Assembly (NCBI RefSeq): GCF_000720925.1
Contig: NZ_JOEE01000006.1
Coordinates: 62,001 to 126,000 of the forward strand
Length of the DNA: 64,000 nucleotides
Origin: Phycicoccus jejuensis
GTDB taxonomy: Bacteria; Actinomycetota; Actinomycetes; Actinomycetales; Dermatophilaceae
Direction of reading: 5' to 3'
The translations under genes were made by a program, and so were the position numbers. The notes under the pieces are model-generated. The model was not told the DNA's origin and did no database searches. It saw only the letters and a program-made list of their open reading frames with translations. Below, in pieces: positions 3,601 through 28,867 of the stretch. Numbering within the stretch: the first letter of the stretch is position 1; each line of letters opens with the position of its first letter.

Positions 3601-3629
3601 CTCATCGGGTCGGGCGGGGCGGACTTGAG
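3601..3629 (-). promoter_or_regulatory. FliA (sigma-28) promoter of flgN-fliW-csrA
   Basis: Read on the minus strand: CTCAAGT (3629-3623), a 14-base spacer, then CCGATGAG (3608-3601). The same spacing occurs at five other flagellar operons in the window. The -10 ends six bases before the flgN GTG, predicting a leaderless mRNA. Confidence 0.85.
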
Positions 3630-3843
3630 CGGCTCCGCGGGACGGATCCGGCTCTGGGTGCTCCAGCCAGTCTGCCACGCGCGCGCGCACGCGTGGCGCA
3701 GGCGCGGATCGGCACGACAACCGGCCGTTCGGACGACCCCCGGTGACCGGTCGGAGACGCCCCCGGTGGCCGAAGGGATCGAAGTCGGCCCCGGAGCCTT
3801 CTACGGCTGGCGACATGCTCGGACGTCCCTCGACAGTGGACCC

Positions 3844-4707
3844 ATGACCACCACGGCCTCCCCTGCGGCCCCCCGTCACGACGTGGACGCGCTCTGCCGC
3901 GAGCACCTCCCGATCGTCAGCTACGAGGTGCGCGCCCTCAGCGCCCGCCTCCCCTCCCACGTGGCGACCGACGACCTGACGTCGGCCGGCCTCTTCGCCC
4001 TCGCGTCGGCCGCCGAGTCGTTCGACGCGAGCCGGGGCGTGCCGTTCGGCCGCTACGCGGCGACCCGCATCAAGGGAGCCCTCCTCGACGAGCTGCGCTC
4101 GATGGACTGGGCGACGCGCTCGGTCCGCACCCGGGCCCGCGAGCTCGACGCCATCCGGGGCGCGATGACCTCCGAGCTGGGCCGTGAGCCGGCAGAGCGC
4201 GAGCTCGCCGACCGCCTCGGCGTCGGGGTCGAGGCCGTGCGCCAGGTCTCCGAGGCGGTGCACCGCTCGGTCGTCGTCCGCCTCGACTCGCTCGTCGACG
4301 CCGGGGTCGCGGACGCGGCCCTGCCGCGCGACGAGCGCACCCCCGAGGACGTCGTGGTCCAGCGCGAGCGCGAGAGCTACCTCTCGGCCGCGGTCGCGGC
4401 ACTGCCCGAGCGGCTGCGCATCGTCGTCCAGGCCACGTTCTTCGAGGACCGGCTCCTCAAGGACGTCGCCGAGGAGCTCGGGGTCACCGAGTCCCGTGTC
4501 TCGCAGCTGCGCACGGAGGCCCTCGGGATGCTCCGCGACGGGATGCGCGCCACGCACGGCGAGGAGCGCCCCGCCGCCGCGGCCGCCGCGACGACCGCCG
4601 CCGCCCGCCGCCGCGCGGGCTACTACGCCGACATCGCCCAGCGCGCCTCCATGGCGCAGCGGGGCTCCGTCGCCGGCCGCCCGGCCGGCGTCCGGTTCGC
4701 GGGCTGA
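3844..4707 (+). CDS. fliA: flagellar sigma factor FliA/WhiG family (sigma-28)
   Basis: A 287-residue sigma-70 family protein with region 2 (about 15-95, with DDLTSAGLFALASAAESFD and FGRYAATRIKGALLDELRS), region 3 (LGREPAERELADRLGV) and region 4 near residues 180-240 (LPERLRIVVQATFFEDRLLKDVAEELGVTES). The RSMDWATRSVR segment is typical of FliA/WhiG. About 45 extra Ala/Arg-rich residues follow region 4. It directs RNA polymerase to flagellar promoters; six such promoters sit in this window. No copy of that promoter lies in the 249 bp before fliA itself, so its own expression seems to use another sigma factor. ATG 3844 is the first start consistent with the family. Confidence 0.93.
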   Translation: MTTTASPAAPRHDVDALCREHLPIVSYEVRALSARLPSHVATDDLTSAGLFALASAAESFDASRGVPFGRYAATRIKGALLDELRSMDWATRSVRTRARELDAIRGAMTSELGREPAERELADRLGVGVEAVRQVSEAVHRSVVVRLDSLVDAGVADAALPRDERTPEDVVVQRERESYLSAAVAALPERLRIVVQATFFEDRLLKDVAEELGVTESRVSQLRTEALGMLRDGMRATHGEERPAAAAAATTAAARRRAGYYADIAQRASMAQRGSVAGRPAGVRFAG

Positions 4708-4758
4708 CGCCCGCGCACCACCCCTGAACGGTCTCGGCGGAAAAAGTTCGCCGGGGCC

Positions 4759-4787
4759 CTCAAGTCCCTCACGGCGCCGCCGATGAG
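4759..4787 (+). promoter_or_regulatory. FliA promoter of fliC
   Basis: CTCAAGT (4759-4765), 14 bases, CCGATGAG (4780-4787). The start site is predicted near 4794, leaving a leader of about 70 bases with AAGGAGG just before the fliC ATG. This leader is long enough to hold CsrA sites. Confidence 0.88.
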
Positions 4788-4864
4788 GGGTGTGCCGCCC
4801 CGACTGGGAGCGGCACGGATCGCCACGGACGGCGGTCCGAGACCCCATCCAAGGAGGAAACATC

Positions 4865-5692
4865 ATGGGTCTGCAGGTCAACACCAACGTCGCCGCTCTG
4901 AACGCCTACCGGCACCTCAGCTCCACCCAGAGCTCGATGAACACCAGCCTCGAGCGCCTGTCCTCGGGTCTGCGCATCAACCGCGCCGCGGACGACGCCG
5001 CCGGCCTGGCGATCAGCGAGAAGCTGCGCGCCCAGACCAACGGTCTCTCCCAGGCCACGTCCAACGCCCAGGACGCGATCTCCCTCGTCCAGACGGCTGA
5101 GGGTGCGCTCAACGAGACGCACTCGATCCTCCAGCGCATGCGCCAGCTGGCGGTCCAGTCGGGCAACGACACGAACACCGCGGACGACCGCCTCGCCATC
5201 CAGAGCGAGGTGACCGCCCTCAACGACGAGCTCGACCGCATCGCCAACACCACCCAGTTCAACGGGCAGAACCTCCTCGACGGCACTGGTGGCACCGCCG
5301 GCACCTTCACGTTCCAGATCGGCGCCAACAGCGGCCAGACCGTCGACGTCGCGTTCGCGCAGGCCGACACGACGACCCTCGGCACCGACACCCTGGACGT
5401 GTCGACCTCGACCGGCGCGACGGCCGCGCTCACCGCGATCGACGCCGCCATCAAGACCGTCTCGGGCAACCGGGCCGACCTCGGTGCGGTGCAGAACCGT
5501 CTGCAGCACACCATCAACAGCCTGAGCGTCGCGTCGGAGAACGCGGCCGCCGCCGAGTCGCGCATCCGTGACACCGACATGGCGAAGGAGATGAGCTCCT
5601 TCAGCCGGAGCCAGATCCTCTCCCAGGCCGGCGTCTCGATGCTCGCCCAGGCGAACAGCGCCCCGCAGTCCGTCCTCAAGCTCCTCGGCTGA
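4865..5692 (+). CDS. fliC: flagellin
   Basis: A 275-residue short flagellin. The N-terminal D0/D1 (about 1-140) shows VNTNVAALNAYRHL, LSSGLRINRAADDAAGLAIS and TAEGALNETHSILQRMR. The C-terminal D1/D0 (about 195-275) shows SRIRDTDMAKEMSSFSRSQI and ends VLKLLG. Only about 50 residues lie between, so the outer D2/D3 domains are minimal. It is exported by the flagellar type III apparatus and polymerises into the filament. ATG 4865 has a strong AAGGAGG 6-7 bases upstream, in a leader from a FliA promoter. It is monocistronic up to a hairpin at 5716-5748. Confidence 0.97.
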   Translation: MGLQVNTNVAALNAYRHLSSTQSSMNTSLERLSSGLRINRAADDAAGLAISEKLRAQTNGLSQATSNAQDAISLVQTAEGALNETHSILQRMRQLAVQSGNDTNTADDRLAIQSEVTALNDELDRIANTTQFNGQNLLDGTGGTAGTFTFQIGANSGQTVDVAFAQADTTTLGTDTLDVSTSTGATAALTAIDAAIKTVSGNRADLGAVQNRLQHTINSLSVASENAAAAESRIRDTDMAKEMSSFSRSQILSQAGVSMLAQANSAPQSVLKLLG

Positions 5693-5715
5693 GCCTGAGC
5701 ACTGACTGACACCGT

Positions 5716-5748
5716 CGCCCGGGTCCGGCTCTCGCACGGATCCGGGCG
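5716..5748 (+). terminator. hairpin after fliC
   Basis: A 12-bp stem (CGCCCGGGTCCG / CGGATCCGGGCG, one mismatch) with a 9-base loop, 24 bases after the fliC stop and before fliD. It likely limits read-through into fliD. Confidence 0.65.
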
Positions 5749-5784
5749 AACGGTCAGCACCACCAGCGAGGAAGGAACAGGACC

Positions 5785-7650
5785 ATGGCGGGAGTCGACG
5801 GGCTGATCTCCGGCCTCAACACGACGCAGATCATCAGCCAGCTGATGACCGTCGAGCGGCAGTCGGGCGCGGGCCTGACGAAGGGCAAGACCGCCAGCCA
5901 GACGATGGTCAGCGTCCTCCAGTCGCTCAACACGCAGATGCTGTCCCTGCGCGACGCCGCGAAGTTCTTCGTCCCCGACCCGCTCCTCAAGACCTCGGGC
6001 TGGACGACCACGACCTCCACCTCCTCCGCGCCGAGCGCCGTCTCCGTCGTCACCGACGGCACGGCCCTGCCGGGGACCACGACCTTCACGGTGTCGAGCG
6101 TCGCCTCCGCCGGGTCCGCGGTCTCGAAGGGGTCGGTCGCCTCGACCTCCACCGCCGTCACCGCCGGCCCGGTCGTCGCCGCGAAGGGCCTCGGGGCGCT
6201 CGGCGCCTCCGCCCTCCTCGCGGGCACGACGCTCGCGGCCGGGTCCCACACCGTCAAGGTGACCCAGGCCTCGGGTGGCGCCACCCTCTCCGGCGTCCCC
6301 CTCGGCTCGACCGTGACCATCGGCTCCGGCGCCCAGCTCGTCGTCGACCTCGGGTCCGGCCCCCAGAGCATCAGCATCGCCGCCGGCACCTACACCCCGT
6401 CGCAGCTCGCGGCCGAGGTGACGCGCGCGGCCGGCGGCGGCCTCACCGCGACCGCCGGCGACGACGGTGCGCTGCGCCTGGCCACCACCCGCGAGGGCAG
6501 CGCCGCCTCGCTCCAGGTCGTCTCCGCCGACCCCGCGCTCGGCCTCACCGACACGACCACGACCGCCCACGGCACCGACGGCGTCGTCGAGCTCGACGGC
6601 GTCGCGACGACGCTCAGCGACCTCGGCCCCGGCTCCACCGTCACGCTCGCCGGGGCGGGCACGGACTCCGTGCAGCTGTCGCTCGCGGGCGGCCTGCGGG
6701 CCGGCACGGCGACCCTCGCGGACCTCGGCCTCGCGGCGGGGTCGAACATCGCCCAGGTCGCCTCGGCCGCGACCTCCTCGTCGCTCGGCCTCTCCGGCAC
6801 GACCATCAAGGTCGGCGACGCCGCCTACAAGCTCCAGCTCACCTCGTCGACCACCGGCGCCGCGTCCGACGTCATGGTCTCGGCCGGCGCGTTCGGGGCG
6901 AGCGGCCTCGGCGACCTCGTCGAGCTCCAGACCCCGACCGACACGGTGCTGCGCGTCGGCACCGGCCCGGGCGCCTTCGACGTCCGCTCGGCGAGCAAGG
7001 ACGTCACCGGACTGCTGCCGGGGACGACCATCACCGCGACGAAGGCCGACCCGACGACGCCGGTCACCGTGACCGTCGCCGGTGACTCCTCCGGCATCGC
7101 GGACAAGATGCAGGCCCTGGTCGACGCGGCGAACGCCGCCATCTCGTTCATCGGCGCGCGCTCCGGCTTCAACGGCGACACCAAGACCGCCGGTGTGCTG
7201 CTGGGCAACTCGCTGACCCAGAACATCGTGCGCCGGGTCACCGACGCCGCGGTCGGCGGCTCCGCCTCGCAGCCCTCCGCCGCCGGCATCACCGTCGGAC
7301 GCGACGGCAAGATCGCCCTCGACAAGACGGCCTTCCTCGCCGCCTACGCCAAGGACCCGGCCAAGGTGACGGCCAACCTCACGAAGATGGCGTCGAGCAT
7401 CGCCGACGTCGCCCAGCAGGCCGCCGACCCGCTCAAGGGCTCGATCACCAACGCGGTGAAGTCCGAGCAGGGCCGGATCCGCGACTACACGAACCAGATC
7501 GCGTCCTTCGAGACGCGGATGTCGCTGCGCGAGGACACCCTCAAGCGGCAGTACGCCGCCCTGGAGTCCCTCCTCGGGACCGTCAAGTCCCAGGGCGACT
7601 GGCTGACCGGCCAGCTGAAGACCCTCCCGACCAACTCGAGCTCGAACTGA
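5785..7650 (+). CDS. fliD: flagellar filament cap protein FliD
   Basis: A 621-residue FliD (HAP2). The N terminus reads VDGLISGLNTTQIISQLMTV, and the C-terminal coiled segment contains QIASFETRMSLREDTLKRQY, both typical. The middle is Ala/Thr/Ser-rich and long, making this larger than the usual 450-480 residues. FliD forms the pentameric or hexameric cap under which flagellin folds. ATG 5785 has GAGGAAGGA upstream. No CTCARGT promoter is visible between the fliC terminator and fliD. It is followed 16 bp later by fliS, forming fliD-fliS-fliT-like-flgK-flgL. Confidence 0.93.
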   Translation: MAGVDGLISGLNTTQIISQLMTVERQSGAGLTKGKTASQTMVSVLQSLNTQMLSLRDAAKFFVPDPLLKTSGWTTTTSTSSAPSAVSVVTDGTALPGTTTFTVSSVASAGSAVSKGSVASTSTAVTAGPVVAAKGLGALGASALLAGTTLAAGSHTVKVTQASGGATLSGVPLGSTVTIGSGAQLVVDLGSGPQSISIAAGTYTPSQLAAEVTRAAGGGLTATAGDDGALRLATTREGSAASLQVVSADPALGLTDTTTTAHGTDGVVELDGVATTLSDLGPGSTVTLAGAGTDSVQLSLAGGLRAGTATLADLGLAAGSNIAQVASAATSSSLGLSGTTIKVGDAAYKLQLTSSTTGAASDVMVSAGAFGASGLGDLVELQTPTDTVLRVGTGPGAFDVRSASKDVTGLLPGTTITATKADPTTPVTVTVAGDSSGIADKMQALVDAANAAISFIGARSGFNGDTKTAGVLLGNSLTQNIVRRVTDAAVGGSASQPSAAGITVGRDGKIALDKTAFLAAYAKDPAKVTANLTKMASSIADVAQQAADPLKGSITNAVKSEQGRIRDYTNQIASFETRMSLREDTLKRQYAALESLLGTVKSQGDWLTGQLKTLPTNSSSN

Positions 7651-7666
7651 GCCAGGAGACGACGAC

Positions 7667-8050
7667 GTGACCACCACCGCCACCCTGCGCCGCCTCTACC
7701 AGAGCGACTCCGTGACGACGGCCTCCCCGAGCCGCCTCGTCGTGCTGCTCTTCGACCGGCTCGTCAAGGACCTGCACCTCGCGATGATCGCCATCGAGAA
7801 GCGCGACATCCAGGGTTCGCACCACGCGCTGCGGCACGCGCAGGACGTCGTCACCGAGCTCTCGACCTCGCTCGACCTCGAGATGTGGCCCGAGGGTCGC
7901 GGCCTGGCCGCCCTCTACGACTACGTCGTCGAGCGCCTCGTCCGGGCCAACGCGACGAAGTCGCACGAGCTCGTGGCCGAGGTGCTCGAGCTCGTCGAGC
8001 CGCTGCGCGAGGCCTTCACGACCGTCTCGGCCACCGCGGAGGCGTCGTGA
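7667..8050 (+). CDS. fliS: flagellin export chaperone FliS
   Basis: A 127-residue helical protein with the FliS pattern: an N-terminal Leu-rich segment with RLYQSDSV, then SRLVVLLFDRLVKDLHLAM, and the C-terminal half with LYDYVVERLVRAN. FliS binds the disordered C-terminal D0 of flagellin and delivers it to FlhA. The GTG start lies 16 bases after the fliD stop with CAGGAG upstream. The stop overlaps the next gene (GTGA). In partner-switching bacteria FliS and FliW compete for flagellin; both are present here. Confidence 0.92.
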   Translation: MTTTATLRRLYQSDSVTTASPSRLVVLLFDRLVKDLHLAMIAIEKRDIQGSHHALRHAQDVVTELSTSLDLEMWPEGRGLAALYDYVVERLVRANATKSHELVAEVLELVEPLREAFTTVSATAEAS

Positions 8051-8361
8051 CCGTCGCCGACCTCTCCTGGGACGACGCACTCGACGCGGTCGAGGGCGAC
8101 CTCGCGCGCGCCGAGCACGCCGTGCGCTCGGGGGACCTCGTCGACCTCGCGGAGGTGCTCGGCCGCTCGCCGCGCGCCACCGGCCCGCTGCCGGAGCGGC
8201 TCGCCTCCCGCGCCACCGCCGCGCTCGAGCGCACGCGCGCGCTCGAGGCCGAGATCGGCGATCGGATGGCCGCCACGGTCCGTGCCCTCGGTGCCGACGA
8301 GCGCCGCCCGCACACCACCCCCGTCCGGCAGACGCCGGCCTACGTCGACGCGAGGGCCTGA
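8047..8361 (+). CDS. small helical flagellar protein in the FliT position
   Basis: A 104-residue protein coupled to fliS by a GTGA overlap and followed one base later by flgK. It is predicted mostly helical, acidic at the N terminus (LSWDDALDAVEGDLARAEHAV) and basic with His/Arg near the C terminus. Sequence identity to FliT is not evident by eye. The call rests on position (fliS-fliT in many clusters), size and helical character. FliT proteins chaperone FliD, whose gene is two upstream. It could equally be an unrelated short export adaptor. Confidence 0.5.
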   Translation: MTVADLSWDDALDAVEGDLARAEHAVRSGDLVDLAEVLGRSPRATGPLPERLASRATAALERTRALEAEIGDRMAATVRALGADERRPHTTPVRQTPAYVDARA

Positions 8362-8362
8362 G

Positions 8363-9733: not shown

Positions 9734-9770
9734 CCATGTCCGACGCCTCGCCCGTCCCCGGAGCACCGCG

Positions 9771-10670: not shown

Positions 10671-10680
10671 CCCCGGCCCG

Positions 10681-10768
10681 GTGCACATTTCGGGGTGACC
10701 CCGAAAAGTGCACGAGACAAGGGAACGGTTCCGGGGTCTCGTGGACATTTCGGGGTGACCCCGAAAAG
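10681..10768. repeat. two palindromic repeats exactly 60 bp apart
   Basis: Copy 1 (10681-10713) is a near-perfect 33-bp palindrome: GTGCAC at both ends and TTTCGGGGT / ACCCCGAAA around the centre. Copy 2 (10741-10768) keeps 27 of the first 28 bases but loses the right outer arm. They lie between flgL and the flgB promoter and could terminate the flgL transcript or be a dispersed repeat. The 318-bp gap 10671-10988 otherwise holds only the flgB promoter and leader. Confidence 0.75.
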
Positions 10769-10864
10769 GTGAGGCACCGGGAGGGGCTCCGCGCAAGCCG
10801 ACCGGGGAGGTCCGGCCGAGCGTCGGAACGTGACTCGGCCGTTCGGCCACACCGCGGTTGGCGC

Positions 10865-10893
10865 CTCAAGTCACCCGGGGGGACGCCGATGGG
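10865..10893 (+). promoter_or_regulatory. FliA promoter of the flgB operon
   Basis: CTCAAGT (10865-10871), 14 bases, CCGATGGG (10886-10893). The predicted start near 10900 leaves a leader of about 90 bases before flgB. It should drive flgB through flgE, about 10 kb. Confidence 0.87.
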
Positions 10894-10988
10894 GCAGTCG
10901 GTCATGGATGGCCGTCAGCCGCCAGGGACGCGCGGCGTACCCGACGCACCACCGTTCGCGGATGGTGCGTGACGCCTCCAGGAGAACC

Positions 10989-11345
10989 ATGATCGACCCC
11001 GTCGGCGACAGCACGTTCCGTGCTCTGGGCCGGGCGCTCACCGGTCTGTCGGTGCGCCAACGCACGATCGCGGACAACATCGCGAACCTCCAGACCCCCG
11101 GGTACACCGCGCAGCGCGTCGACTTCGAGAGCAGCCTCGCCTCCGCGTGGGCCTCCGGCGGCGACACCGGCTCGTCCTCCATCCGCACGATGGCGTCCTC
11201 CGACCCCGCCGGCCTCAACGGCAACAACGTCAACCTCGACGAGGAGACCCTCGCCGCCACCGAGACCGGACTGTCCTACCAGCTCGGCGTCCAGGCGATG
11301 ACCGACCGCTTCCAGCGCCTGCGCAACGCGATCGGCGGTGCGTGA
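10989..11345 (+). CDS. flgB: flagellar proximal rod protein FlgB
   Basis: A 118-residue FlgB: ALTGLSVRQRTIADNIANLQ followed by TPGYTAQRVDFE, and the C-terminal helix LSYQLGVQAMTDRFQRLRNA. It forms part of the proximal rod above the MS ring. ATG 10989 is preceded by CAGGAG and gives the normal short N terminus. It is the first gene of the long FliA-driven operon, and its stop overlaps flgC (TGATG). Confidence 0.92.
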   Translation: MIDPVGDSTFRALGRALTGLSVRQRTIADNIANLQTPGYTAQRVDFESSLASAWASGGDTGSSSIRTMASSDPAGLNGNNVNLDEETLAATETGLSYQLGVQAMTDRFQRLRNAIGGA

Positions 11346-15263: not shown

Positions 15264-16561
15264 CGACCACCCTCCACGACGAGCTCGTCGCCGCGGCCCG
15301 CCCCCGGGTCACCGGCCGGGTCACCCGCGCCGTCGGCGTCGGCCTCGAGGTCAGCGGCCTCGACGTCGCCGTCGGCGAGGCCGTGCGCGTCGTGGGGGAG
15401 CGCGGCTCGATCCTCGCCGAGGTCGTCGCCCTCGACGACGGCACCGCCCGCTGCATGCCGGTCGGCGAGCTGCGCGGCGTCCGCGTCGGCGACCGCGTCG
15501 AGGCCACCGGCGGCCCGCTGCGCGTGCCGGTCGGCGACGGCCTCGTCGGCCGCGTCGTCAACGCGCTCGGCCAGCCGATCGACGGTGGTCCGGCGCTGAC
15601 CGACGTCCAGTGGGTCGGCACCGACGGCACCCCGCCGCCGGCGATGACGCGCGAGCGCATCAACACCCAGCTCGGCCTCGGCATCCGCGCCTTCGACACG
15701 CTCATCCCGTGCGGCCGCGGCCAGCGCATGGGCATCTTCGCCGGCTCGGGCGTCGGCAAGTCGAGCCTGCTGTCGATGATCGTCCGCGGCACCGACGCCC
15801 CGGTCACGGTCCTCGCGCTCGTCGGCGAGCGCGGCCGCGAGGTGCGCGAGTTCGTCGAGCACGACCTCGGCCCCGAGGGCCTGGCCCGCGCCGTCGTCGT
15901 CGTGGCGACCTCCGACGAGCCGGCGCTCGTGCGCCTGCACGCGGCGTTCACCGCGACCCGGATCGCCGAGTGGTTCCGCGACCAGGGTCGCGACGTCCTC
16001 CTCGCGATGGACAGCGTCACACGCGTCGCGATGGCCCAGCGCGAGGTCGGCCTCGCCGCCGGCGAGCCCCCGACGACCCGCGGCTACCCGCCGTCGGTCT
16101 TCGGCATCCTGCCGCGGCTGCTCGAGCGCGCCGGCACCGCCGAGCGCGGCAGCATCACCGGCCTCTACACGGTGCTCGTCGAGGGCGACGACATGAACGA
16201 CCCCGTGGCCGACGCCGTGCGCTCCATCCTCGACGGCCACGTCGTGCTCGACCGCCGCCTCGCGACCGCCGGCCACTACCCGTGCATCGACGTCCTCGAG
16301 TCGGTCTCGCGCGCCAACCGCGCCCTCACCGACCCGCAGCAGCGCGCCGCCGCCGACACCCTGCGCAGCCTCCTCGCCGCGCGCCGCGACGCCAAGGACC
16401 TCGTCGAGATCGGCGCCTACGTCGCCGGCACCAACCCGCTCGTCGACCGCGCCCTCGCGCAGAGCGGCGCCATCGACGCCTTCCTGCGCCAGGACCTCGA
16501 CGACGTGACCGACGCCCGCGACAGCTGGGCCGCCCTCTCGAGCCTGGCGGGTGCGCTGTGA
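15260..16561 (+). CDS. fliI: flagellum-specific export ATPase FliI
   Basis: A 433-residue F1-beta-like ATPase. The N-terminal barrel is followed by Walker A GSGVGKSS at about 162-169, VTVLALVGERGREVREF, Walker B in DVLLAMDSVTRVAMAQREV, and GEPPTTRGYPPSVFGILPRL typical of type III secretion ATPases. It energises unloading of substrates at the flagellar export gate with FliH and FliJ. ATGA overlap with fliH and GTGA with fliJ. Confidence 0.96.
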   Translation: MTTTLHDELVAAARPRVTGRVTRAVGVGLEVSGLDVAVGEAVRVVGERGSILAEVVALDDGTARCMPVGELRGVRVGDRVEATGGPLRVPVGDGLVGRVVNALGQPIDGGPALTDVQWVGTDGTPPPAMTRERINTQLGLGIRAFDTLIPCGRGQRMGIFAGSGVGKSSLLSMIVRGTDAPVTVLALVGERGREVREFVEHDLGPEGLARAVVVVATSDEPALVRLHAAFTATRIAEWFRDQGRDVLLAMDSVTRVAMAQREVGLAAGEPPTTRGYPPSVFGILPRLLERAGTAERGSITGLYTVLVEGDDMNDPVADAVRSILDGHVVLDRRLATAGHYPCIDVLESVSRANRALTDPQQRAAADTLRSLLAARRDAKDLVEIGAYVAGTNPLVDRALAQSGAIDAFLRQDLDDVTDARDSWAALSSLAGAL

Positions 16562-16995
16562 GCACCCGCACCGAGCGCCTGAAGACCGTGCTGCGCGTCC
16601 GCACCATCCAGGAGGAGCAGCGCCGCGGCGACCTCGCCCGCGCCGCCGCCGCGCAGGGGCGCGCCGCCGAGGCCGCCGCCGAGGCCGCGGCCCGCTACGG
16701 CGCGCGCGACGTCTGCGGCGTCGGCGTGCCGGTCGACCTCGCGACCTTCCTCGGGACGCGCGCCGCCGAGACCCGCCGGGCCGACGGCGTGGCCCACGCC
16801 GTGCGCGAGCAGGCCCTCGCCGAGGGCGAGACCGACCGCGCTCGCGCCCTGCTCACCGAGGCCCGCACGCGCACCTCGGGCCTCGAGCGGCTCGTCGAGC
16901 GCGCGGCCGAGGAGCAGCGCCTCGAGGTCCTCGCGGCCGACGAGCAGACCGCCGAGGAGTCGGTGCGCGGCCGCCGGACGGAGGACGAGGGATGA
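16558..16995 (+). CDS. fliJ: FliJ-like coiled-coil export protein
   Basis: A 145-residue, almost wholly helical protein rich in Ala, Arg and Glu (RVRTIQEEQRRGDLARAAAA; GLERLVERAAEEQRLEVLAA). Size, coiled-coil character and the slot directly after fliI fit FliJ, the stalk-like partner of FliI that contacts FlhA. FliJ sequences diverge strongly, so identity rests mostly on position. It overlaps fliI (GTGA) and the next gene (ATGA). Confidence 0.78.
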   Translation: MSTRTERLKTVLRVRTIQEEQRRGDLARAAAAQGRAAEAAAEAAARYGARDVCGVGVPVDLATFLGTRAAETRRADGVAHAVREQALAEGETDRARALLTEARTRTSGLERLVERAAEEQRLEVLAADEQTAEESVRGRRTEDEG

Positions 16996-17999
16996 GCGTC
17001 GAGACCTCCGGCCCCGCCGCCGCATTCGCCCGGATGGCCGCCATCCAGGGCGCGATCGCCTCCGTCTCCGGCGGCGCCCGCACCCAGACGGCGGCCGCCA
17101 CCACCGGGGCGTCGTCCTTCGACTCCGTCTACGGCGCCGCGCTCGAGGGCGTCGAGGGCGGCACCGACCTCGCCGGCGGCTCGTCCGTCGGTGGCTCCGA
17201 CACCGGCTCGCGCGCGGTCGCCGCGGCCAAGAAGTACCTCGGCGTCCCCTACGTCTGGGGCGGCACCACGCCGAAGGGCCTCGACTGCTCGGGCCTGGTC
17301 CAGCTCGCCTACCGCGAGGTCGGCGTCGAGCTCCCCCGGGTCGCGGCCGACCAGGCGCGGCAGGGCACGGCGGTCCCGGACCTCGCCCACGCGCAGCCCG
17401 GCGACCTGCTCGCCTTCAACTCCCCGGTCACGCACATCGCGATCTACGTCGGCGACGGCAAGATGATCGCCGCTCCCAAGCGCGGGGACGTCGTGAAGAT
17501 CCAGGACGTCTACAAGACGCCGACGGCCATCCGCCGGATCGGCCCGACCGTCGCGGAGGGCGTCTCCGCCACCGGCCCCACCGCCGCCACCGGTGGTGTC
17601 GCGGCCCTCTCCGGCAGCGGTGCGCCCGCCGGCCTCCACCAGCTGTTCTCGGCCGCGACGGCGCGCTACGGCCTCCCGGCCGGCCTGCTCGACGCGGTCG
17701 CCAAGGCCGAGAGCGGGTACGACCCGCGGGCGGTCAGCGGCGCCGGCGCCCAGGGCCTCATGCAGCTGATGCCGGCCACCGCGCGCGGCCTCGGCGTCGA
17801 CCCGTTCGACCCGGCCCAGGCCGTCGACGGTGCGGCCCGGATGCTCAAGCGCGACCTCGCGCGCTTCGGCCGGCTCGACCTCGCGGTCGCGGCCTACAAC
17901 GCCGGGGCCGGTGCCGTGCAGCGCTACGGCGGCATCCCGCCGTACGCGGAGACCCAGCAGTACGTCCGCCGAGTCCTCGGCACCCTGGGGGTGAGCTGA
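16992..17999 (+). CDS. dual peptidoglycan hydrolase: NlpC/P60 peptidase + lytic transglycosylase, in the flgJ position
   Basis: A 335-residue protein with two wall-cutting domains. Residues about 75-190 form an NlpC/P60 Cys peptidase (YLGVPYVWGGTTPKGLDCSG with Cys99; His148 in VTHIAIYVGDG). Residues about 215-335 form an SLT-type lytic transglycosylase (Glu240 in AKAESGYDPRAVSGAGAQGL; MQLMPATARGLG; AVAAYNAGAGAVQRYGGIPP). No signal peptide is seen; the N terminus is low-complexity Ala/Ser/Gly, compatible with export through the flagellar apparatus. Lying between fliJ and fliK, it probably opens the thick wall for the rod, as FlgJ does in proteobacteria. Start and stop overlap neighbours. Confidence 0.9.
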   Translation: MSVETSGPAAAFARMAAIQGAIASVSGGARTQTAAATTGASSFDSVYGAALEGVEGGTDLAGGSSVGGSDTGSRAVAAAKKYLGVPYVWGGTTPKGLDCSGLVQLAYREVGVELPRVAADQARQGTAVPDLAHAQPGDLLAFNSPVTHIAIYVGDGKMIAAPKRGDVVKIQDVYKTPTAIRRIGPTVAEGVSATGPTAATGGVAALSGSGAPAGLHQLFSAATARYGLPAGLLDAVAKAESGYDPRAVSGAGAQGLMQLMPATARGLGVDPFDPAQAVDGAARMLKRDLARFGRLDLAVAAYNAGAGAVQRYGGIPPYAETQQYVRRVLGTLGVS

Positions 18000-21291: not shown

Positions 21292-21320
21292 CTCAAGTCC
21301 TGGGCCCGGCTGCCGATGGG
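21292..21320 (+). promoter_or_regulatory. FliA promoter of flbD-motA-motB-fliL
   Basis: CTCAAGT (21292-21298), 14 bases, CCGATGGG (21313-21320). The start site is predicted near 21327, about 50 bases before flbD. Confidence 0.86.
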
Positions 21321-21375
21321 AACCCCGACGCGCCACGGACGGCGCATCCAGCACACCCAGGACGGACCCGGCCCC

Positions 21376-21645
21376 ATGATCATCCTCACCCGCCGCAACG
21401 GCACGCGCTTCGGGATCAACCCCGACCTCGTCGAGCGCGTCGACGAGACCCCGGACACCATCGTCCTGCTCGTCACCGGCTCGCGCTACGTCGTGCAGGA
21501 GACCCTCGACGAGGTCGTCTCGATCATGCGCGAGTCGCGCGCCTCGGTCCTGCACGCCGCCGAGGAGTCCGGCACCGGCCAGCCCGGGTCCCGCCCCGGC
21601 GCCGGCCGCGTGGCCCTGCGTGCCGTCCGCGGCCTGGAGGACTGA
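21376..21645 (+). CDS. flbD: FlbD/SwrD family protein
   Basis: An 89-residue protein. The first about 60 residues match the small FlbD/SwrD family (MIILTRRNGTRFGINPDLVE; ETPDTIVLLVTGSRYVVQET; LDEVVSIM). In Bacillus SwrD raises motor torque by acting on the stator. The last about 30 residues are a basic, Gly/Pro-rich tail beyond the family core. Its place directly before motA and motB, under one FliA promoter, fits a stator-related role. The ATG follows CGGACCCGGCCCC with no clear Shine-Dalgarno. Confidence 0.88.
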   Translation: MIILTRRNGTRFGINPDLVERVDETPDTIVLLVTGSRYVVQETLDEVVSIMRESRASVLHAAEESGTGQPGSRPGAGRVALRAVRGLED

Positions 21646-23303: not shown

Positions 23304-23770
23304 GCACCGCCACCGTCCCCGCCGCCGCGGCCGCCGCCGCCGCGCCGGAGAAGAAGAAGCCGATGATGCTCATCGCCGTCGTCGTGGCCCTCGTCATGGC
23401 CGGCGCCGGGTACTGGTTCTTCCTCAAGCCCTCGTCGGCCGAGGGGGCCGAGGCGCCCAAGCCCGAGCCGACCCCCGGCGTCGTCGTCGACCTCGACCCC
23501 CTGACCCTCAACCTCGCCGACGGCCGCTACCTCAAGATGGGCCTCTCGCTCGAGGTCACCGAGGAGGCCCAGGCCGCCGCCGGCAAGGAGGGCGTCAACG
23601 GTGCCAAGGCGCGCGACGCCGCCATTACCATCCTCGGCCAGCGCACCTACGAGCAGATGCTGCAGCCGAAGACCAAGGAGGCGGCCATCAAGACGCTCGA
23701 GAAGGAGATCAAGAAGCGTTACGACGGCGACGTGATGGACGTCTACGTGACGGAGCTGGTCATGCAGTGA
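23300..23770 (+). CDS. fliL: flagellar basal body-associated protein FliL
   Basis: A 156-residue single-pass protein. A short Ala-rich cytoplasmic start with EKKKPMM precedes a TM helix at about 23-43 and an extracellular domain with VVVDLDPLTLNLADGRYLKM followed by GLSLEVTEE. The end (LEKEIKKRYDGDVMDVYVTE) is typical. FliL rings around stators and supports torque. ATGA overlap with motB; it is the last gene of the flbD-motA-motB-fliL unit. Confidence 0.93.
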   Translation: MSTATVPAAAAAAAAPEKKKPMMLIAVVVALVMAGAGYWFFLKPSSAEGAEAPKPEPTPGVVVDLDPLTLNLADGRYLKMGLSLEVTEEAQAAAGKEGVNGAKARDAAITILGQRTYEQMLQPKTKEAAIKTLEKEIKKRYDGDVMDVYVTELVMQ

Positions 23771-23785
23771 CCCTGCACTGACCCT

Positions 23786-23799
23786 CGGCCTTCGGGCCG
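23786..23799 (+). terminator. small hairpin after fliL
   Basis: CGGCC and GGCCG around a TTCG tetraloop, 15 bases after the fliL stop and upstream of the fliM promoter. The stem is short, but the UUCG loop is stabilising. Confidence 0.45.
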
Positions 23800-23914
23800 G
23801 CACGGACAGGGAGCCGGCCCGCAGCCACCCGGTCGGGGGACGCCGCCCACTCGGGCGCTCGTCCCCCACCGGGTCGGCCGAACGGCCCTTGCTGCCCACG
23901 TGCGACACGAACCG

Positions 23915-23943
23915 CTCAGGTCCCCCCGGTGGGTGCCGATGGG
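23915..23943 (+). promoter_or_regulatory. FliA promoter of the fliM operon
   Basis: CTCAGGT (23915-23921), 14 bases, CCGATGGG (23936-23943). The -10 ends six bases before the fliM GTG at 23950, the same offset as at flgN, so a leaderless message is predicted. Confidence 0.85.
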
Positions 23944-23949
23944 CAGGCC

Positions 23950-24819
23950 GTGAGTGTGGAGCCACAGACGTACGACTTCCGGAGCCCGGACCGCCTCTCG
24001 CGACAGCGTGAGCAGGCGCTCCAGGTCGTCGTCGAGACCTGGGCGCGGCGCGTCTCCACCGTGCTGTCGACCGCCCTGCACACGATCGTGCCCGCGAAGG
24101 TGGTCGCGCTCGGCCAGTGCACCTACGGCGAGTACCTCGAGTCGATGGCCCGCCCCAGCGTGCTCGGCGCGCTCGCGGTCGAGAACCTCCCCGGCGGCGG
24201 CCACCTCCAGCTCTCGCTCGGTGACGCCATGGGCTTCGTCGACCGCATGCTCGGCGGCTCCGGCACCGGCGCGCAGCCCGAGCGGCCCCTCACGGAGATC
24301 GAGTCCGGTGTGGCCGAGCTGCTCCTGGCCCAGATGGTCGGCGAGCTGCCCTTCTCGTTCACCGTCATCGGCGACCTGCCCGTCGCGATGACCGGCCTGG
24401 AGTCGACGGTGCGCTTCCACCAGGTCGCCCGCACCACCGATCCCGTCGTCACGGTCGAGCTCGAGCTGCTCGTCTTCGAGCGGCCGGTCCCGCTGACCGT
24501 CGCGGTCACCCTCGCCACGCTCACCCCGCTGCTCACGTCCCTCGACAAGATGGCCGACGACGACGGCGCGGGGGAGCGGGCCGCGCAGGTCCGCCGCGTC
24601 GTGACCGACCGCCTCGGCCAGGTCGAGGTCGACGTCGCCGTCTCCTTCCGCGAGGTCACGCTGACCTCCGCCGAGGTCTTCGCCCTCTCCGTCGGTGACG
24701 TCGTCCCCCTGCGCCACCGCACCGCGGAGCCGCTCCTCGTGTCCGCCGGTGGCACCCGCGTCGCCCGCGCGACGCCCGGCAGCCACGGCCGCCGCCTCGC
24801 CGTCCAGATCGTCCCCTGA
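23950..24819 (+). CDS. fliM: flagellar motor switch protein FliM
   Basis: A 289-residue FliM: VEPQTYDFRSPDRLSRQREQ at the start, middle CheC-like domain (GHLQLSLGDAMGFVDRMLGG; LTEIESGVAELLLAQMV), and C-terminal SpoA-like domain ending GSHGRRLAVQIVP. It forms the C ring with FliG and FliN. The usual N-terminal CheY-P binding motif (EIDALL-like) is missing: the protein begins directly at the YDF-R-PDR segment. GTG 23950 is chosen because an earlier in-frame ATG at 23929 lies inside the promoter; GTG 23956 is also possible. Confidence 0.9.
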   Translation: MSVEPQTYDFRSPDRLSRQREQALQVVVETWARRVSTVLSTALHTIVPAKVVALGQCTYGEYLESMARPSVLGALAVENLPGGGHLQLSLGDAMGFVDRMLGGSGTGAQPERPLTEIESGVAELLLAQMVGELPFSFTVIGDLPVAMTGLESTVRFHQVARTTDPVVTVELELLVFERPVPLTVAVTLATLTPLLTSLDKMADDDGAGERAAQVRRVVTDRLGQVEVDVAVSFREVTLTSAEVFALSVGDVVPLRHRTAEPLLVSAGGTRVARATPGSHGRRLAVQIVP

Positions 24820-24844
24820 CCCCCGACCCGACCGGAGACCCGCC

Positions 24845-25246
24845 ATGAGCATCGCCGACACCCAGGACCCGTTCGCCGTCACCGGTGAGGAGGCGCCCGC
24901 CCCGACGACCGAGGCCGCGCCCGCGCTGCCGCCGCTCGGTGGTGCCGTGCCCGCCGCCGCGACGGCCGCGCCCGCCGCGGTCGACCCCCGCCGCCTGCAC
25001 CTGCTGCGCGAGGTGGAGCTCGGCATCAGCGTCGAGCTCGGCCGCAGCCGGATGACGGTGCGCGAGGTGCTCGGCCTGGCTCCGGGCGCCGTCGTCGAGC
25101 TCGACCGCCCCGCCGGCAGCCCGGTCGACGTCCTCGTCAACGGCACCCTCATGGCGCGCGGCGAGGTCGTCGTCGTCGACGACGAGTACGCCGTCCGCGT
25201 CACCGAGATCGTCAGCGCCGACCCGGCCCTGGGGCTCGGCGCCTGA
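24845..25246 (+). CDS. fliN: flagellar motor switch protein FliN
   Basis: A 133-residue FliN. About 45 Ala/Pro/Thr-rich residues precede a SpoA domain (LREVELGISVELGRSRMTVR; EVLGLAPGAVVELDRPAGSP; VDVLVNGTLMARGEVVVVDD; YAVRVTEIV), which is very close to the family consensus. It builds the lower C ring and docks FliH. It starts 25 bp after fliM with CCGGAG upstream, and its stop overlaps fliO (TGATG). Confidence 0.95.
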   Translation: MSIADTQDPFAVTGEEAPAPTTEAAPALPPLGGAVPAAATAAPAAVDPRRLHLLREVELGISVELGRSRMTVREVLGLAPGAVVELDRPAGSPVDVLVNGTLMARGEVVVVDDEYAVRVTEIVSADPALGLGA

Positions 25247-25848
25247 TGGACGGATCCGTCGTGCTCGTCGTGCTGCGGCTGCTCGTCTCCCTCGGCGTCG
25301 TCCTCACCCTCCTCGTGCTGCTCGCCCGCTGGGCGCGCAAGCGCGGCCTCGGGGGTGCGGTCGGCTCGCGTGCCGGGGTGCAGGTCGAGGTGCTGTCGCG
25401 GCGCGCGCTGGGCCGCGGGTCCGCCCTCCACGTCGTGCGCGTCGGCGAGCAGGTACTCGTCCTCGGCGTCACCGACCAGCACGTCTCGCTCCTGCGCGAG
25501 CTCGACCCGCAGGTCCTCGAGGTCGTCGAGCCGGAGCAGGAGGCCCCCGTGGTCACCGCCCCGACGGTCGCCATCGCGCCCGCCGCCGCGCCGGACTTCG
25601 CCGCCGCGCTGCGGGCGCAGGCCGACGGGACCGGCCTCGACCTCGGCCCCGCGGCCACCGTGCCGGTCGCCGTCGCCTCCGTCGCTCCCGCTGCTCCGGT
25701 CACCCGCAGCGGTCGCCACGCCGCGGCGCGCCGCCCCGTCCTGCCCCGCCCCGCCGCCCCCGCGGCCGGTGGCGCCCCGGTGCCGACCGGATGGCCGTGG
25801 AACGCCGCGAGCCTCGTCGTCGGCGCGATCAAGGGGAGTCGTGCCTAG
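25246..25848 (+). CDS. fliO: flagellar export gate scaffold protein FliO
   Basis: A 200-residue protein with one N-terminal TM helix (LVVLRLLVSLGVVLTLLVLL) followed by a cytoplasmic domain with VQVEVLSRRALGRGSALHVV and VGEQVLVLGVTDQHVSLLRE, the FliO/FliZ signature. A long Ala/Pro-rich tail follows. FliO assists assembly of the FliP ring and is encoded, as usual, just before fliP. TGATG overlap with fliN and 8-bp overlap with fliP. Confidence 0.88.
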   Translation: MDGSVVLVVLRLLVSLGVVLTLLVLLARWARKRGLGGAVGSRAGVQVEVLSRRALGRGSALHVVRVGEQVLVLGVTDQHVSLLRELDPQVLEVVEPEQEAPVVTAPTVAIAPAAAPDFAAALRAQADGTGLDLGPAATVPVAVASVAPAAPVTRSGRHAAARRPVLPRPAAPAAGGAPVPTGWPWNAASLVVGAIKGSRA

Positions 25849-26635
25849 TCCCCTCGCCCTCCTGCGGCGGGTGCGCCCGCTGCTCGTGACCGGCCTCGTG
25901 CTGTTCACGGCGTTCGGCCCCGGCGCCGCCCTCGCGTCGGCCGCGCCGAGCCCGAGCCCGTCGCCCACCCCCGGTGGGGTGTCGGTGACGCTCGACGGCG
26001 GCGCGACGCAGCCGAGCCAGACGGTGACGATCATCGTCCTGCTCACCGTGCTGTCGCTGGCGCCGGCGCTGCTCATCCTCACGACCGCCTTCACCAAGGT
26101 GATCGTCGTGCTGTCGCTGACCCGCAACGCGCTCGGCACCCAGACCATCCCGCCGAACCAGGTCTTGGTCGGCCTCGCGCTCTTCCTCAGCCTCTTCATC
26201 ATGGCGCCGGTCCTGTCGCAGATGAACGACCAGGGCATCCAGCCCTACATGAAGGGCGACATCACCCAGTCGCAGGCGATCGAGCGCACCGTCAAGCCGC
26301 TCCGGACGTTCATGGGCGAGCAGACCCGCCCGGCCGAGCTCGCGACGATGGTCAAGCTGAGCGGTGAGGAGAAGCCCGCGACGGTCGACGACGTGCCGCT
26401 GACGACGCTCGTGCCGGCCTTCGTCCTCTCGGAGCTGAAGTCCGCGTTCATCATCGGCTTCGTCATCTTCGTGCCGTTCCTCGTCATCGACGTCGTCGTC
26501 AGCTCCGTGCTCATGTCGATGGGCATGATGATGCTGCCGCCCGCGCTCATCTCGCTGCCCTTCAAGCTCCTGCTCTTCGTCATGGTCGACGGCTGGGGCC
26601 TCATCGTCACCGCCCTCGTCCAGAGCTACCGGTGA
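25841..26635 (+). CDS. fliP: flagellar export gate protein FliP
   Basis: A 264-residue FliP with a cleavable signal sequence (LLVTGLVLFTAFGPGAALAS), then TM helices with LTVLSLAPALLILTTAFTKV, IVVLSLTRNALGTQTIPPNQ, VLVGLALFLSLFIMAPVLSQ and, after the periplasmic-type loop, LVPAFVLSELKSAFIIGFVI and MGMMMLPPALISLPFKLLLF. It forms the core of the export channel with FliQ and FliR. The GTG at 25841 has AAGGGGAG upstream and overlaps fliO by 8 bp; the frame continues upstream only as shadow of fliO. Confidence 0.95.
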   Translation: MPSPLALLRRVRPLLVTGLVLFTAFGPGAALASAAPSPSPSPTPGGVSVTLDGGATQPSQTVTIIVLLTVLSLAPALLILTTAFTKVIVVLSLTRNALGTQTIPPNQVLVGLALFLSLFIMAPVLSQMNDQGIQPYMKGDITQSQAIERTVKPLRTFMGEQTRPAELATMVKLSGEEKPATVDDVPLTTLVPAFVLSELKSAFIIGFVIFVPFLVIDVVVSSVLMSMGMMMLPPALISLPFKLLLFVMVDGWGLIVTALVQSYR

Positions 26636-26645
26636 GGGGGAGGAC

Positions 26646-26915
26646 GTGACCGACGCCGACATCGTCCACATCGGGGTGCAGGCCATGATCGTCAGCGCGA
26701 AGCTGGCGATGCCCGTGCTGCTCACCGCCCTGGCCATCGGCTTCGTCATCTCGCTCTTCCAGGCGGTCACGCAGGTGCAGGAGGTGACGCTCAGCTTCGT
26801 GCCGAAGCTCCTCGGCGTCGCGCTCGTCCTCGTCGTCGCCGGCCACTGGATGCTCCAGGAGGCGGTGTCCTTCACCCGCGCCATGTTCGACCTCCTGCCG
26901 CAGCTGCTCACCTGA
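26646..26915 (+). CDS. fliQ: flagellar export gate protein FliQ
   Basis: An 89-residue two-helix hairpin protein: AMIVSAKLAMPVLLTALAIG, FVISLFQAVTQVQEVTLSFV, PKLLGVALVLVVAGHWML. Four copies surround the FliP-FliR core. The GTG has GGGGGAGG just upstream in the 10-bp gap after fliP. Its stop overlaps fliR by one base (TGATG). Confidence 0.95.
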   Translation: MTDADIVHIGVQAMIVSAKLAMPVLLTALAIGFVISLFQAVTQVQEVTLSFVPKLLGVALVLVVAGHWMLQEAVSFTRAMFDLLPQLLT

Positions 26916-27694
26916 TGACGATCGCGTTCGCCGCCGACTCGCTCGTCACGCTGCTGCTCGCGACGACGCGGCTCTCGGTGTTCTTCCTCCTCGCCCCGCC
27001 GTTCAGCAGCAAGGCCGTTCCGGCGCGCGTCAAGGCCGGTCTGGCCGTCGCGCTCTCGCTGGCGGTGCTCCCGGCCATCCGTGGGCAGGCGACGCCGGCG
27101 CTCGAGCTCTTCCCGCTGCTCGGCGCGGCCCTCTACCAGGCGGTCGTCGGCGCGGCGATGGGCTTCGTCGTCCTGCTGGCCTTCGCGGTCGTGCAGGCCG
27201 CCGGCGAGCTGCTCGACCTCGCGAGTGGCTTCACGCTCGCCTCGCTCTACGACCCGATGTCGAACGCGACGAGCAGCATCTTCGGGCGCATCCACCAGCT
27301 GCTCGCGATCACCCTGCTCTTCGCGACCGGCGGGCACCTCTTCCTCGTGCGCGGGCTCATCTCGACCTTCACGGTCCTGCCGCTGCACCCGATGGCCCTC
27401 GGCGACCTCGCCCGGCTCGTCACCGACGGGATCGGCACCTTCCTCGGTGGGGCGCTGCAGGTGGCGGCGCCGGTGCTCGTCGTGCTCTTCCTCTCGGAGA
27501 TCGCGCTCGGCCTGGTGTCGCGGGCCGTCCCGACGCTCAACATCTTCGCGATCAGCTTCCCCGTGAAGATCATCCTCGTCATCTCCTTCGCGGGAATGGC
27601 CTTCGCGCTGCTGCCCGGGGTCGTCAGCGAGCTGCTCGACCAGACCGGACGCGACATGACCTCGGTGGCGCGGATGCTCGGGGCGGGTGGGTGA
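26915..27694 (+). CDS. fliR: flagellar export gate protein FliR
   Basis: A 259-residue multi-pass FliR: TTRLSVFFLLAPPFSSKAVP, VKAGLAVALSLAVLP, GAAMGFVVLLAFAVVQAAGE followed by LLDLASGFTLASLYDPMSNA, and SRAVPTLNIFAISFPVKIIL. One copy completes the helical FliP5-FliQ4-FliR1 gate. It starts at the fliQ stop and ends just inside or before flhB, depending on the flhB start. Confidence 0.94.
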   Translation: MTIAFAADSLVTLLLATTRLSVFFLLAPPFSSKAVPARVKAGLAVALSLAVLPAIRGQATPALELFPLLGAALYQAVVGAAMGFVVLLAFAVVQAAGELLDLASGFTLASLYDPMSNATSSIFGRIHQLLAITLLFATGGHLFLVRGLISTFTVLPLHPMALGDLARLVTDGIGTFLGGALQVAAPVLVVLFLSEIALGLVSRAVPTLNIFAISFPVKIILVISFAGMAFALLPGVVSELLDQTGRDMTSVARMLGAGG

Positions 27695-27698
27695 GCCG

Positions 27699-28808
27699 GT
27701 GAGCGACAAGTCGCAGAAGACCGAGAAGCCCACCCCGCAGCGGCTCAAGAAGGCGCGCCGCGACGGGCAGGTCGCCCGCACCGCCGAGCTCAGCGCGTGG
27801 GCGGCCGTCATGCTCGCGTCCGTCGTCCTGCCGCACCTCGTCTCCGGGCTGTCCGAGCTGTTCGTCGGCACCCTCCAGGGGCTGCGCGAGGTCATCCTCG
27901 ACCCGCAGCCCGAGCGCGGCGTGACCGTGATGCGGCAGACGGGGATCGACGCCGTCAAGGTGCTCGCGCCGTTCCTCGGCGTCATGGTCGTGGCCGCGCT
28001 GGCCAGCAGCGCGGCGCAGGGCGGCATCCGCGTCTACCCCGGCAAGTTCAAGCCCAACTTCGGTGTGCTCAACCCGGCCAAGGGGCTCAAGCAGCTCGTC
28101 TCCGCGCACGCCGCGTGGACCCTCGGCAAGACCCTGCTGAAGTTCGTCATCTTCGGGTGGGTCGGGTACACCGAGCTGCGCGACGTCGCGATCCTCATGA
28201 CGACGCACGGCTCGTGGTCACTCGGGGCTGCGGCGTCCGCAGCGGTCGGGGCCGTGACGCACGTGCTCCGGCTCGTCGCCGGCGTCGGGCTCGTGCTCGC
28301 CGCAGCGGACTTCGTCATGGAGAAGCGGCGCATCGGCTCGCAGCTGAAGATGAGCCAGGACGAGATCAGGCGCGAGCACAAGCAGTCCGAGGGCGACCCG
28401 CTGCTCAAGGGCATGATCCGCGGCAAGCAGCGCGAGATGAGCCGCAACCGGATGCTCTCCAACCTCGCCTCGGCCGACGTCGTGCTCGTCAACCCGACGC
28501 ACGTCGCGGTCGCGCTCAAGTACGAGATGGGCCTCGGCGCGCCGCGGGTCGTCGCGCGCGGCGCCGGTGCGGCGGCGGCCCGCATCCGCGAGGAGGCGGC
28601 CGAGCTGCGGCTGCCGATGGTCGAGGACGTGCCGCTCGCGCGCACCGTCTACCGGATGTGCGACGTCGGCGACGAGATCCCGCCGGAGCTCTTCGATGCC
28701 GTCGCGGGCGTGTTCGTCTTCGTCCTCGGGCTCAAGCGCCGCGGCGTGACGAGCGGCTTCCACCGCAGCCCGTACGCGGGCACCGACCGGGCGGGGGTCG
28801 CCGCGTGA
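27699..28808 (+). CDS. flhB: flagellar export gate switch protein FlhB
   Basis: A 369-residue FlhB. It starts with SDKSQKTEKPTPQRLKKARR, the canonical N terminus, has four TM helices and a cytoplasmic domain with the self-cleavage site NPTH at 265-268 (VVLVNPTHVAVALKYEMG). It switches export from rod/hook to filament substrates together with FliK. GTG 27699 is chosen because it puts the conserved N terminus first; an in-frame GTG at 27687 would add four residues and overlap fliR. It is the last gene of the fliM operon. Confidence 0.94.
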   Translation: MSDKSQKTEKPTPQRLKKARRDGQVARTAELSAWAAVMLASVVLPHLVSGLSELFVGTLQGLREVILDPQPERGVTVMRQTGIDAVKVLAPFLGVMVVAALASSAAQGGIRVYPGKFKPNFGVLNPAKGLKQLVSAHAAWTLGKTLLKFVIFGWVGYTELRDVAILMTTHGSWSLGAAASAAVGAVTHVLRLVAGVGLVLAAADFVMEKRRIGSQLKMSQDEIRREHKQSEGDPLLKGMIRGKQREMSRNRMLSNLASADVVLVNPTHVAVALKYEMGLGAPRVVARGAGAAAARIREEAAELRLPMVEDVPLARTVYRMCDVGDEIPPELFDAVAGVFVFVLGLKRRGVTSGFHRSPYAGTDRAGVAA

Positions 28809-28838
28809 GCTCCGCGACCACCCCGGGCGCCCGGACCC

Positions 28839-28867
28839 CTCAGGTCACGTCCCCGCCTGCCGATGGG
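28839..28867 (+). promoter_or_regulatory. FliA promoter of flhA
   Basis: CTCAGGT (28839-28845), 14 bases, CCGATGGG (28860-28867). It lies in the 109-bp gap between flhB and flhA and points straight at a 14-codon reading frame starting nine bases after the -10. Confidence 0.83.

Follow-up and report, generated by a model that had tools for sequence, protein, structure and literature searches.

How are the genes of a flagellum put in order when early and late operons carry the same promoter? The question is raised by a 64,000-nucleotide stretch of the Phycicoccus jejuensis genome (contig NZ_JOEE01000006.1, positions 62,001 to 126,000; hereafter the window), which holds a flagellar gene cluster with six sigma-28-type promoter sites of one architecture, CTCARGT-N14-CCGATGRG, together with a gene for the sigma factor FliA. 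The ordering of actinobacterial flagellar assembly was open in 2008, since, according to PMC2587704, four flagellated Actinobacteria yielded no flgM ortholog and the Kineococcus motility island held nothing homologous to known master regulators. From the sequence comparisons below, we consider it likely that FliA transcribes all six operons and that CsrA and FliW sort the fliC, flgB and flbD transcripts by a hairpin in their leaders, a control from which the fliM and flgN transcripts would escape.

A search of the window with zero mismatches returned exactly six sites, five on the + strand and one on the - strand, all with the same 14-base spacer and at the positions listed in a preliminary description of this DNA. 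Each precedes, in the direction of the gene, the flgN, fliC, flgB, flbD, fliM or flhA gene to which that description had assigned it, and Pfam matches uphold the assignments. The chance expectation from base composition is 0.0004 exact matches per window and 0.03 per genome. The whole genome (3,985,545 bases in 97 contigs) yielded seven exact matches and two with one mismatch, and the reversed pattern, scanned as a control, matched once at up to one mismatch. Six of these nine sites lie before flagellar genes, two before genes of cyclic diguanylate (c-di-GMP) metabolism, and one is chance-like. The proposal that a genome-wide scan would find mainly motility or chemotaxis genes was thus borne out by six of the seven exact matches, the seventh (C8:155974) preceding the gene of a 1038-residue PAS-GGDEF-EAL protein. 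One of the one-mismatch sites (C6:238302) stands in the correct orientation 49 bases upstream of the gene of a 598-residue MASE1-PAS-GGDEF protein; the other (C8:112478) is within an AidB-like acyl-CoA dehydrogenase gene. The two sites before GGDEF genes suggest that c-di-GMP enzymes belong to the flagellar regulon. The shorter pattern TCARGT-N14-CCGATG had nine exact matches in the genome, among them C7:220755, inside a long open frame whose Wzy_C match stays under the cut-off; this site and C8:112478 look like chance matches. At up to two mismatches the shorter pattern lost its specificity, because it matched 1015 times against 460 in the reversed control. Rigid spacing, direction and genomic distribution agree with the sigma-28 type, and the six sites are very probably real, conventional FliA promoters. 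As previously noted, fliA itself has no such site: no + strand match with up to three mismatches was found between the flgN site and fliA.

The -35 had been described as different from the enteric one, and this does not stand, because two Escherichia coli FliA sites given in PMC4183435, those of flgKL (TCAAGTCCGGCGGGTCGCTGCCGATAAT, reading TCAAGT-N14-CCGATA) and fliLMNOPQR (TCAAGACGCAGGATAATTAGCCGATAAG, reading TCAAGA-N14-CCGATAAG), carry a -35 identical or nearly identical to the Phycicoccus one at equal spacing. With tar included, the E. coli promoters (TCAAGT, TCAAGA and TAAAGT) share with the Phycicoccus sites the 14 bases to CCGAT and the rigid geometry, whereas the -10 continues with GRG here and with AAT, AAG or AAC there. 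A further difference from E. coli FliA is that early operons of the Phycicoccus genome (flgB, fliM and flhA) share their promoter type with the late ones. The WhiG/FliA promoters of Rubrobacter (PMC8325347) likewise belong to an actinobacterial sigma factor of the flagellar clade, have a GCCGAT -10 and include diguanylate cyclase/phosphodiesterase genes among their targets; type IV pilus genes are prominent there, in contrast to the flagellar and two c-di-GMP genes found here.

Promoters and leaders were compared across 30 flagellated genomes of the order Actinomycetales, P. jejuensis included, out of 89 found. As an actinobacterial consensus, CTCARGT proved overstated: what is general is CT(C/T/A)A followed by CGAT(R), in most cases at a distance of 17 bases, with a common core of CTNA-N17-CGAT. 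A 2020 study of FliA1-3 is reported to give a FliA consensus of the CTCA/GCCGAA type. In best matches the spacing from CT.A to CCGAT was 17 before fliC in 27 of the 30 genomes, flgB in 21, flbD in 28, fliM in 21 and flhA in only 13, counts that lean upward because the score favours the motif and, slightly, a spacing of 17; beyond the family, many flhA matches have low scores and are chance-like. CTCARGT was also rejected as an order-wide consensus, as TCARGT-N14-CCGATR matched 266 of 297 genomes, of which only 89 have flagellin, and a scan with it therefore has no discriminating power.

The product of fliA scored 187.6 bits against TIGR02479 (FliA_WhiG), just below the cut-off of 189.6, and the chain of known structure that ranks second among its matches (6pmi) bears the name FliA. 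The genome holds 25 Sigma70_r4 matches, and the main reader of the six sites could in principle be another sigma factor, or the sites could be bound by a regulator. Twelve of these loci, fliA among them, were fetched, and 10 other sigma factors were compared with FliA_WhiG: they scored at most 90.7 bits where it was among the matches listed and, where it was not, below the last match listed, that is, at most 113.1 bits. The motif, moreover, coincides with one of the E. coli FliA sites in PMC4183435 and is similar to the flagellar consensus that PMC8325347 applies to actinobacterial WhiG. A reader other than FliA thus seems very improbable, and we infer from these matches that FliA transcribes from all six sites.

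Neither leader hairpins nor leaderless starts were part of the preliminary description. In the window, the fliC, flgB and flbD leaders each hold a short hairpin of the CsrA type (Table 1). Among the 30 genomes, many fliC upstream regions carry GCCC-ACGGAT-GGGC about 20 bases past the -10, and similar elements stand before flbD and, often in pairs, before flgB. Hairpins whose loop of 6 to 7 bases begins with A.GGA on a stem of at least 4, counted in a fixed 130 bases upstream of the gene, were present before fliC in 29 of the 30 genomes, flgB in 29, flbD in 17, flhA in 3 and fliM in none. In 200 shuffles the corresponding means were 0.85, 0.68, 0.75, 0.43 and 0.42 and the maxima 5, 4, 4, 4 and 2. 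The longest-stemmed hairpin had an A.GGA loop in 17/29 fliC, 18/28 flgB and 9/25 flbD leaders, compared with 0/25 for fliM and 1/27 for flhA. Outside the family, 18 of 26 flgB leaders have two tandem A.GGA hairpins with loops of 6 to 8 bases, and the predicted transcription start would lie close to the beginning of the first. In Austwickia chelonae, two FliA-type sites (L117:6620 and L117:9015) share the beginning of the leader, letter for letter, and the hairpin behind it, which gives the impression of a duplicated flagellin leader.

Lying close to the predicted 5' end, the hairpins might be ordinary stabilisers of the messenger RNA (mRNA) or translation-initiation structures unrelated to CsrA. 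Such structures have no need of an A.GGA loop, yet when loops were left unconstrained, A.GGA opened half of those before fliC (31/61) and flgB (42/83) and none before fliM (0/56), with 15/62 before flbD and 3/54 before flhA; we regard an unrelated stabiliser as distinctly improbable. The sequence ANGGA also recurs within 22 nucleotides upstream of the start codon in 29 of 30 genomes for fliC and 23 for flbD, as against 1 for flgB and 3 for flhA, a count in which AAGGA also belongs to the common Shine-Dalgarno sequence; near flbD it often reads CAAGGAYGG, a departure from the canonical Shine-Dalgarno.

Covariation was examined in an alignment (A1) of 44 of the 60 possible fliC and flbD hairpins. 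Left out for fliC were the duplicate rows of G173 and G108 and the copies of G260 and G043 (weak stem or other site chosen), and for flbD the weak copies of G017, G108, G246, G041, G088 and G292, the good copy of G087 and five without a usable A.GGA. The covariation score was 0.467, compared with 0.160 when shuffled and 0.169 in the best slid alignment, and both sides had changed in 66 cells, where shuffling gave 24.9; these values lean toward structure because weak and unusable copies were left out, and the invariance of A.GGA is by construction, as copies were picked by it. Two checks are free of any choice of stem or loop, namely the unconstrained-loop count above and the pairing in leaders unselected for a stem (fliC 25/30, flbD 26/30 and flgB 23/30, the rest lacking a promoter match or A.GGA). 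In the latter, pairs 3 and 4 form in 24 of 25 fliC leaders, where 13 to 14 were expected, and pair 3 forms in 22 of 26 flbD leaders, where 12 were expected. The stem is therefore backed by compensatory changes in fliC and, more weakly, in flbD.

These data also bear on the alternative that the leader element works as DNA, as an operator or downstream promoter element for a transcription factor or RNA polymerase, with promoters that are sigma-28 only. Its near-fixed distance from the -10 (22 nucleotides in 12/25 fliC leaders, 18 to 19 in 21/23 flgB leaders) would fit such a role. The compensatory changes between the arms and the frequency of A.GGA in unselected loops suit RNA better, and ANGGA again near the fliC start and the tracking of flagellin by csrA point the same way. 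We consider a DNA element unlikely and favour a CsrA-type RNA hairpin.

At fliM and flgN there seems to be no room for such a hairpin, since transcription appears to start directly on the gene. The preliminary description had predicted starts 6 to 8 bases past CCGATGRG, and the first base of the GTG of both genes is the seventh base. The first in-frame start codon of fliM lies 9 to 11 bases past the last base of a CGAT-like -10 in 24 of the 30 genomes, some of these promoters having a weak -10 such as ACGAC; two more (G292 and G293) have a codon at such a distance plus an earlier one, and four lack a usable promoter call. For flgN, the promoter layout is the same and the start codon falls at the expected transcription start in all four sampled flagellated members of the family, P. 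jejuensis among them. If start codon and transcription start coincide, these mRNAs have no leader, and we predict both to be leaderless.

The window also encodes CsrA and FliW, in an flgN-fliW-csrA run on the - strand. Among the 297 genomes of the order, 89 have flagellin, 87 csrA and 85 both, with four exceptions on the flagellin side (G032, G129, G163 and G185) and two on the csrA side (G012 and G171); csrA thus occurs almost exclusively with flagellin in the sampled order (85 of 87 genomes). The source family, with 24 genomes in the sample, has four with flagellin and csrA, P. jejuensis included, and two other genomes of the source genus have neither. The best solved match of the window CsrA is 5dmb, a FliW-CsrA complex. 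The window CsrA also has L4 and R44, to which a figure legend of PMC7652899 draws attention. According to that paper, the CsrA site is a single-stranded GGA in a hairpin loop, and Bacillus subtilis hag has two sites, one over the Shine-Dalgarno. The leaders here show the traits of a hag-type operator, with A(N)GGA in an upstream hairpin loop, a stem with compensatory changes at fliC and, more weakly, flbD, and csrA and fliW in the genome. They may also resemble the CsrA-FliW-Hag system in having two candidate sites at fliC, one over the Shine-Dalgarno, and they differ from it in that similar hairpins stand before the rod operon (flgB) and flbD-motAB as well, and in that fliM and flgN are predicted to be leaderless (PMC7652899).

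The specificity of the hairpin was assessed with a covariance model (R1) of 38 hairpins, namely those of A1 without the four of the family and without the flbD copies of G028 and G173 (mismatched stems), and hence trained without any flgB copy and without the source family. In the window, the model ranked the fliC, flgB and flbD leaders first to third, the next match scoring 17.1 bits. Rfam at gathering scores found only a transfer RNA (tRNA) in the window. The hairpin alone was rejected as a means of finding the regulon: eight of 19 genome-wide matches (seven loci) were examined, and all lay in long open frames of a kind that also arises by chance at this G+C, L317 being near a possible gene start. 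A composite promoter-plus-GGA pattern matched 136 times in the 297 genomes and 10 times in its reversed control; 93 of the matches fell in 51 of the 89 flagellated genomes, and at least 72 of these matches had a flagellar anchor within 60 kb. In the P. jejuensis genome it found flgB and flbD only, fliC being beyond its gap range. The composite pattern is enriched but far from clean.

Taken as a mechanism, FliA would read -35 CTCARGT and -10 CCGATGRG across a fixed spacer and so drive flgN-fliW-csrA, fliC, the flgB rod/MS-ring operon, flbD-motAB, fliM onward and flhA, and elsewhere in the genome two c-di-GMP enzyme genes. The fliC, flgB and flbD transcripts would present A(N)GGA in a short hairpin near the 5' end, with another A(N)GGA covering the fliC ribosome site and, in most relatives, near the flbD start. 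CsrA may bind these three leaders and block their translation; flagellin export would then free FliW, which would remove CsrA and lift the block, while leaderless fliM and flgN mRNAs would escape CsrA. What the sequences show are the sites, the order of the genes, their conservation, covariation at fliC and, less strongly, flbD, and the joint occurrence of csrA and flagellin; reading by FliA, the start positions, the binding of CsrA and the direction of this control we infer. As FliA is predicted to transcribe flgN-fliW-csrA too, the cell would make both repressor and antagonist alongside the genes that they sort.

Several results weigh against this account. The fliA product falls 2 bits short of the FliA_WhiG cut-off, and fliA itself lacks such a promoter. 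The flgB hairpin of the window is missing from the minimum free energy (MFE) fold of its leader, a fold that pairs leader and start codon, and covariation was not shown for flgB, pairing being near expectation in the 23 leaders unselected by stem. At flbD, 13 of 30 genomes lack a stem of at least 4. Two-sided change in 7 of the 8 pairs of A1 was equalled by 56 of 500 shuffles. Genome-wide, R1 had matches elsewhere of up to 24.7 bits, exceeding all three leaders, which were not among the matches listed (150 of 3460 candidates scored). The composite pattern, finally, hit only 51 of the 89 flagellated genomes and had 43 matches in 37 of the 208 without flagellin.

Table 1. Promoter sites, leader elements and genes of the flagellar region (window coordinates)
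Feature	Position	Strand	Details
Sigma-28-type promoter, flgN-fliW-csrA	3601..3629	-	Exact match; flgN GTG 6 bases on, predicted leaderless
Sigma-28-type promoter, fliC	4759..4787	+	Exact match
Sigma-28-type promoter, flgB	10865..10893	+	Exact match
Sigma-28-type promoter, flbD-motA-motB-fliL	21292..21320	+	Exact match
Sigma-28-type promoter, fliM	23915..23943	+	Exact match; fliM GTG 6 bases on, predicted leaderless
Sigma-28-type promoter before flhA	28839..28867	+	Exact match; found in 4 flagellated family genomes (own included)
CsrA-type hairpin, fliC leader	4817..4838	+	Loop ACGGAC; R1 rank 1, 20.9 bits, E 0.0063; in MFE fold
Second A(N)GGA site over fliC Shine-Dalgarno	4849..4857	+	CCAAGGAGG
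CsrA-type hairpin near expected flgB mRNA 5' end	10896..10917	+	Loop AUGGAU; R1 rank 2, 20.4 bits, E 0.0088
CsrA-type hairpin, flbD leader	21327..21348	+	Loop ACGGAC; R1 rank 3, 20.3 bits, E 0.0094; in MFE fold
csrA	2296..2634	-	PF02599; NF002469 over cut-off; L4, R44
fliW	2669..3085	-	PF02623; overlaps flgN end
flgN	3082..3594	-	PF05130
fliA, FliA/WhiG-type sigma factor	3844..4707	+	Best NCBIfam match TIGR02479, E 2.7e-55
fliC (flagellin)	4865..5692	+	PF00669/PF00700
flgB	10989..11345	+	PF00460 (basal-body rod protein); TIGR01396 over cut-off
flbD	21376..21645	+	PF06289
fliM	23950..24819	+	PF02154
flhA	28918..30990	+	PF00771 (FHIPEP/FlhA)

Pfam matches on the + strand support fliA, fliC, flgK, flgB, fliF, fliG, fliH, fliI, fliK, flgD, flgE, flbD, motA, motB, fliL, fliM, fliN, fliO, fliP, fliR, flhB and flhA, a list for which part of the intervening genes were tested. 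The nearest named flagellins are those of Austwickia and Mobilicoccus. A 14-codon open reading frame at 28877-28921 occupies the gap between promoter and flhA, its TGA overlapping the flhA ATG (ATGA), and by eye similar short frames overlap flhA in the three other flagellated family genomes. Between fliI and fliK (16551-17999) lies a gene whose product combines NlpC/P60 with SLT transglycosylase domains and may open the cell wall for the flagellum. At 31503-41094, soon after the flagellar cluster, a tRNA gene is followed by type I restriction-modification and KAP NTPase genes, a possible tRNA-associated island.

The promoters are of a known kind, ordinary sigma-28. A CsrA site at one actinobacterial flagellin, that of Kineococcus radiotolerans, was suggested in 2008 (PMC2587704), and Actinobacteria are listed among the groups that may use FliW in PMC4682653. 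The Kineococcus site is, as here, a predicted CsrA-like site over the ribosome site; as described there, it is one site in one species, whereas the present comparison concerns a covarying upstream hairpin, three operons and 30 genomes. Open-licence literature, a body without the main Actinoplanes missouriensis flagellar papers, gave, among the matches listed, no report that describes the upstream hairpin, names flgB and flbD as targets or treats actinobacterial fliM as leaderless.

What emerges is an RNA element, conserved and open to test, that goes with the beginnings of three flagellar operons throughout the sampled order. If true, a CsrA-FliW layer that extends to the rod and motor operons would directly answer how flagellar assembly is ordered. 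More tentatively, and with rather more doubt than confidence, we suggest that the flagellar hierarchy of flagellated Actinomycetales may be mainly post-transcriptional, one sigma factor serving early and late operons and leaderlessness acting as a built-in exemption from CsrA.

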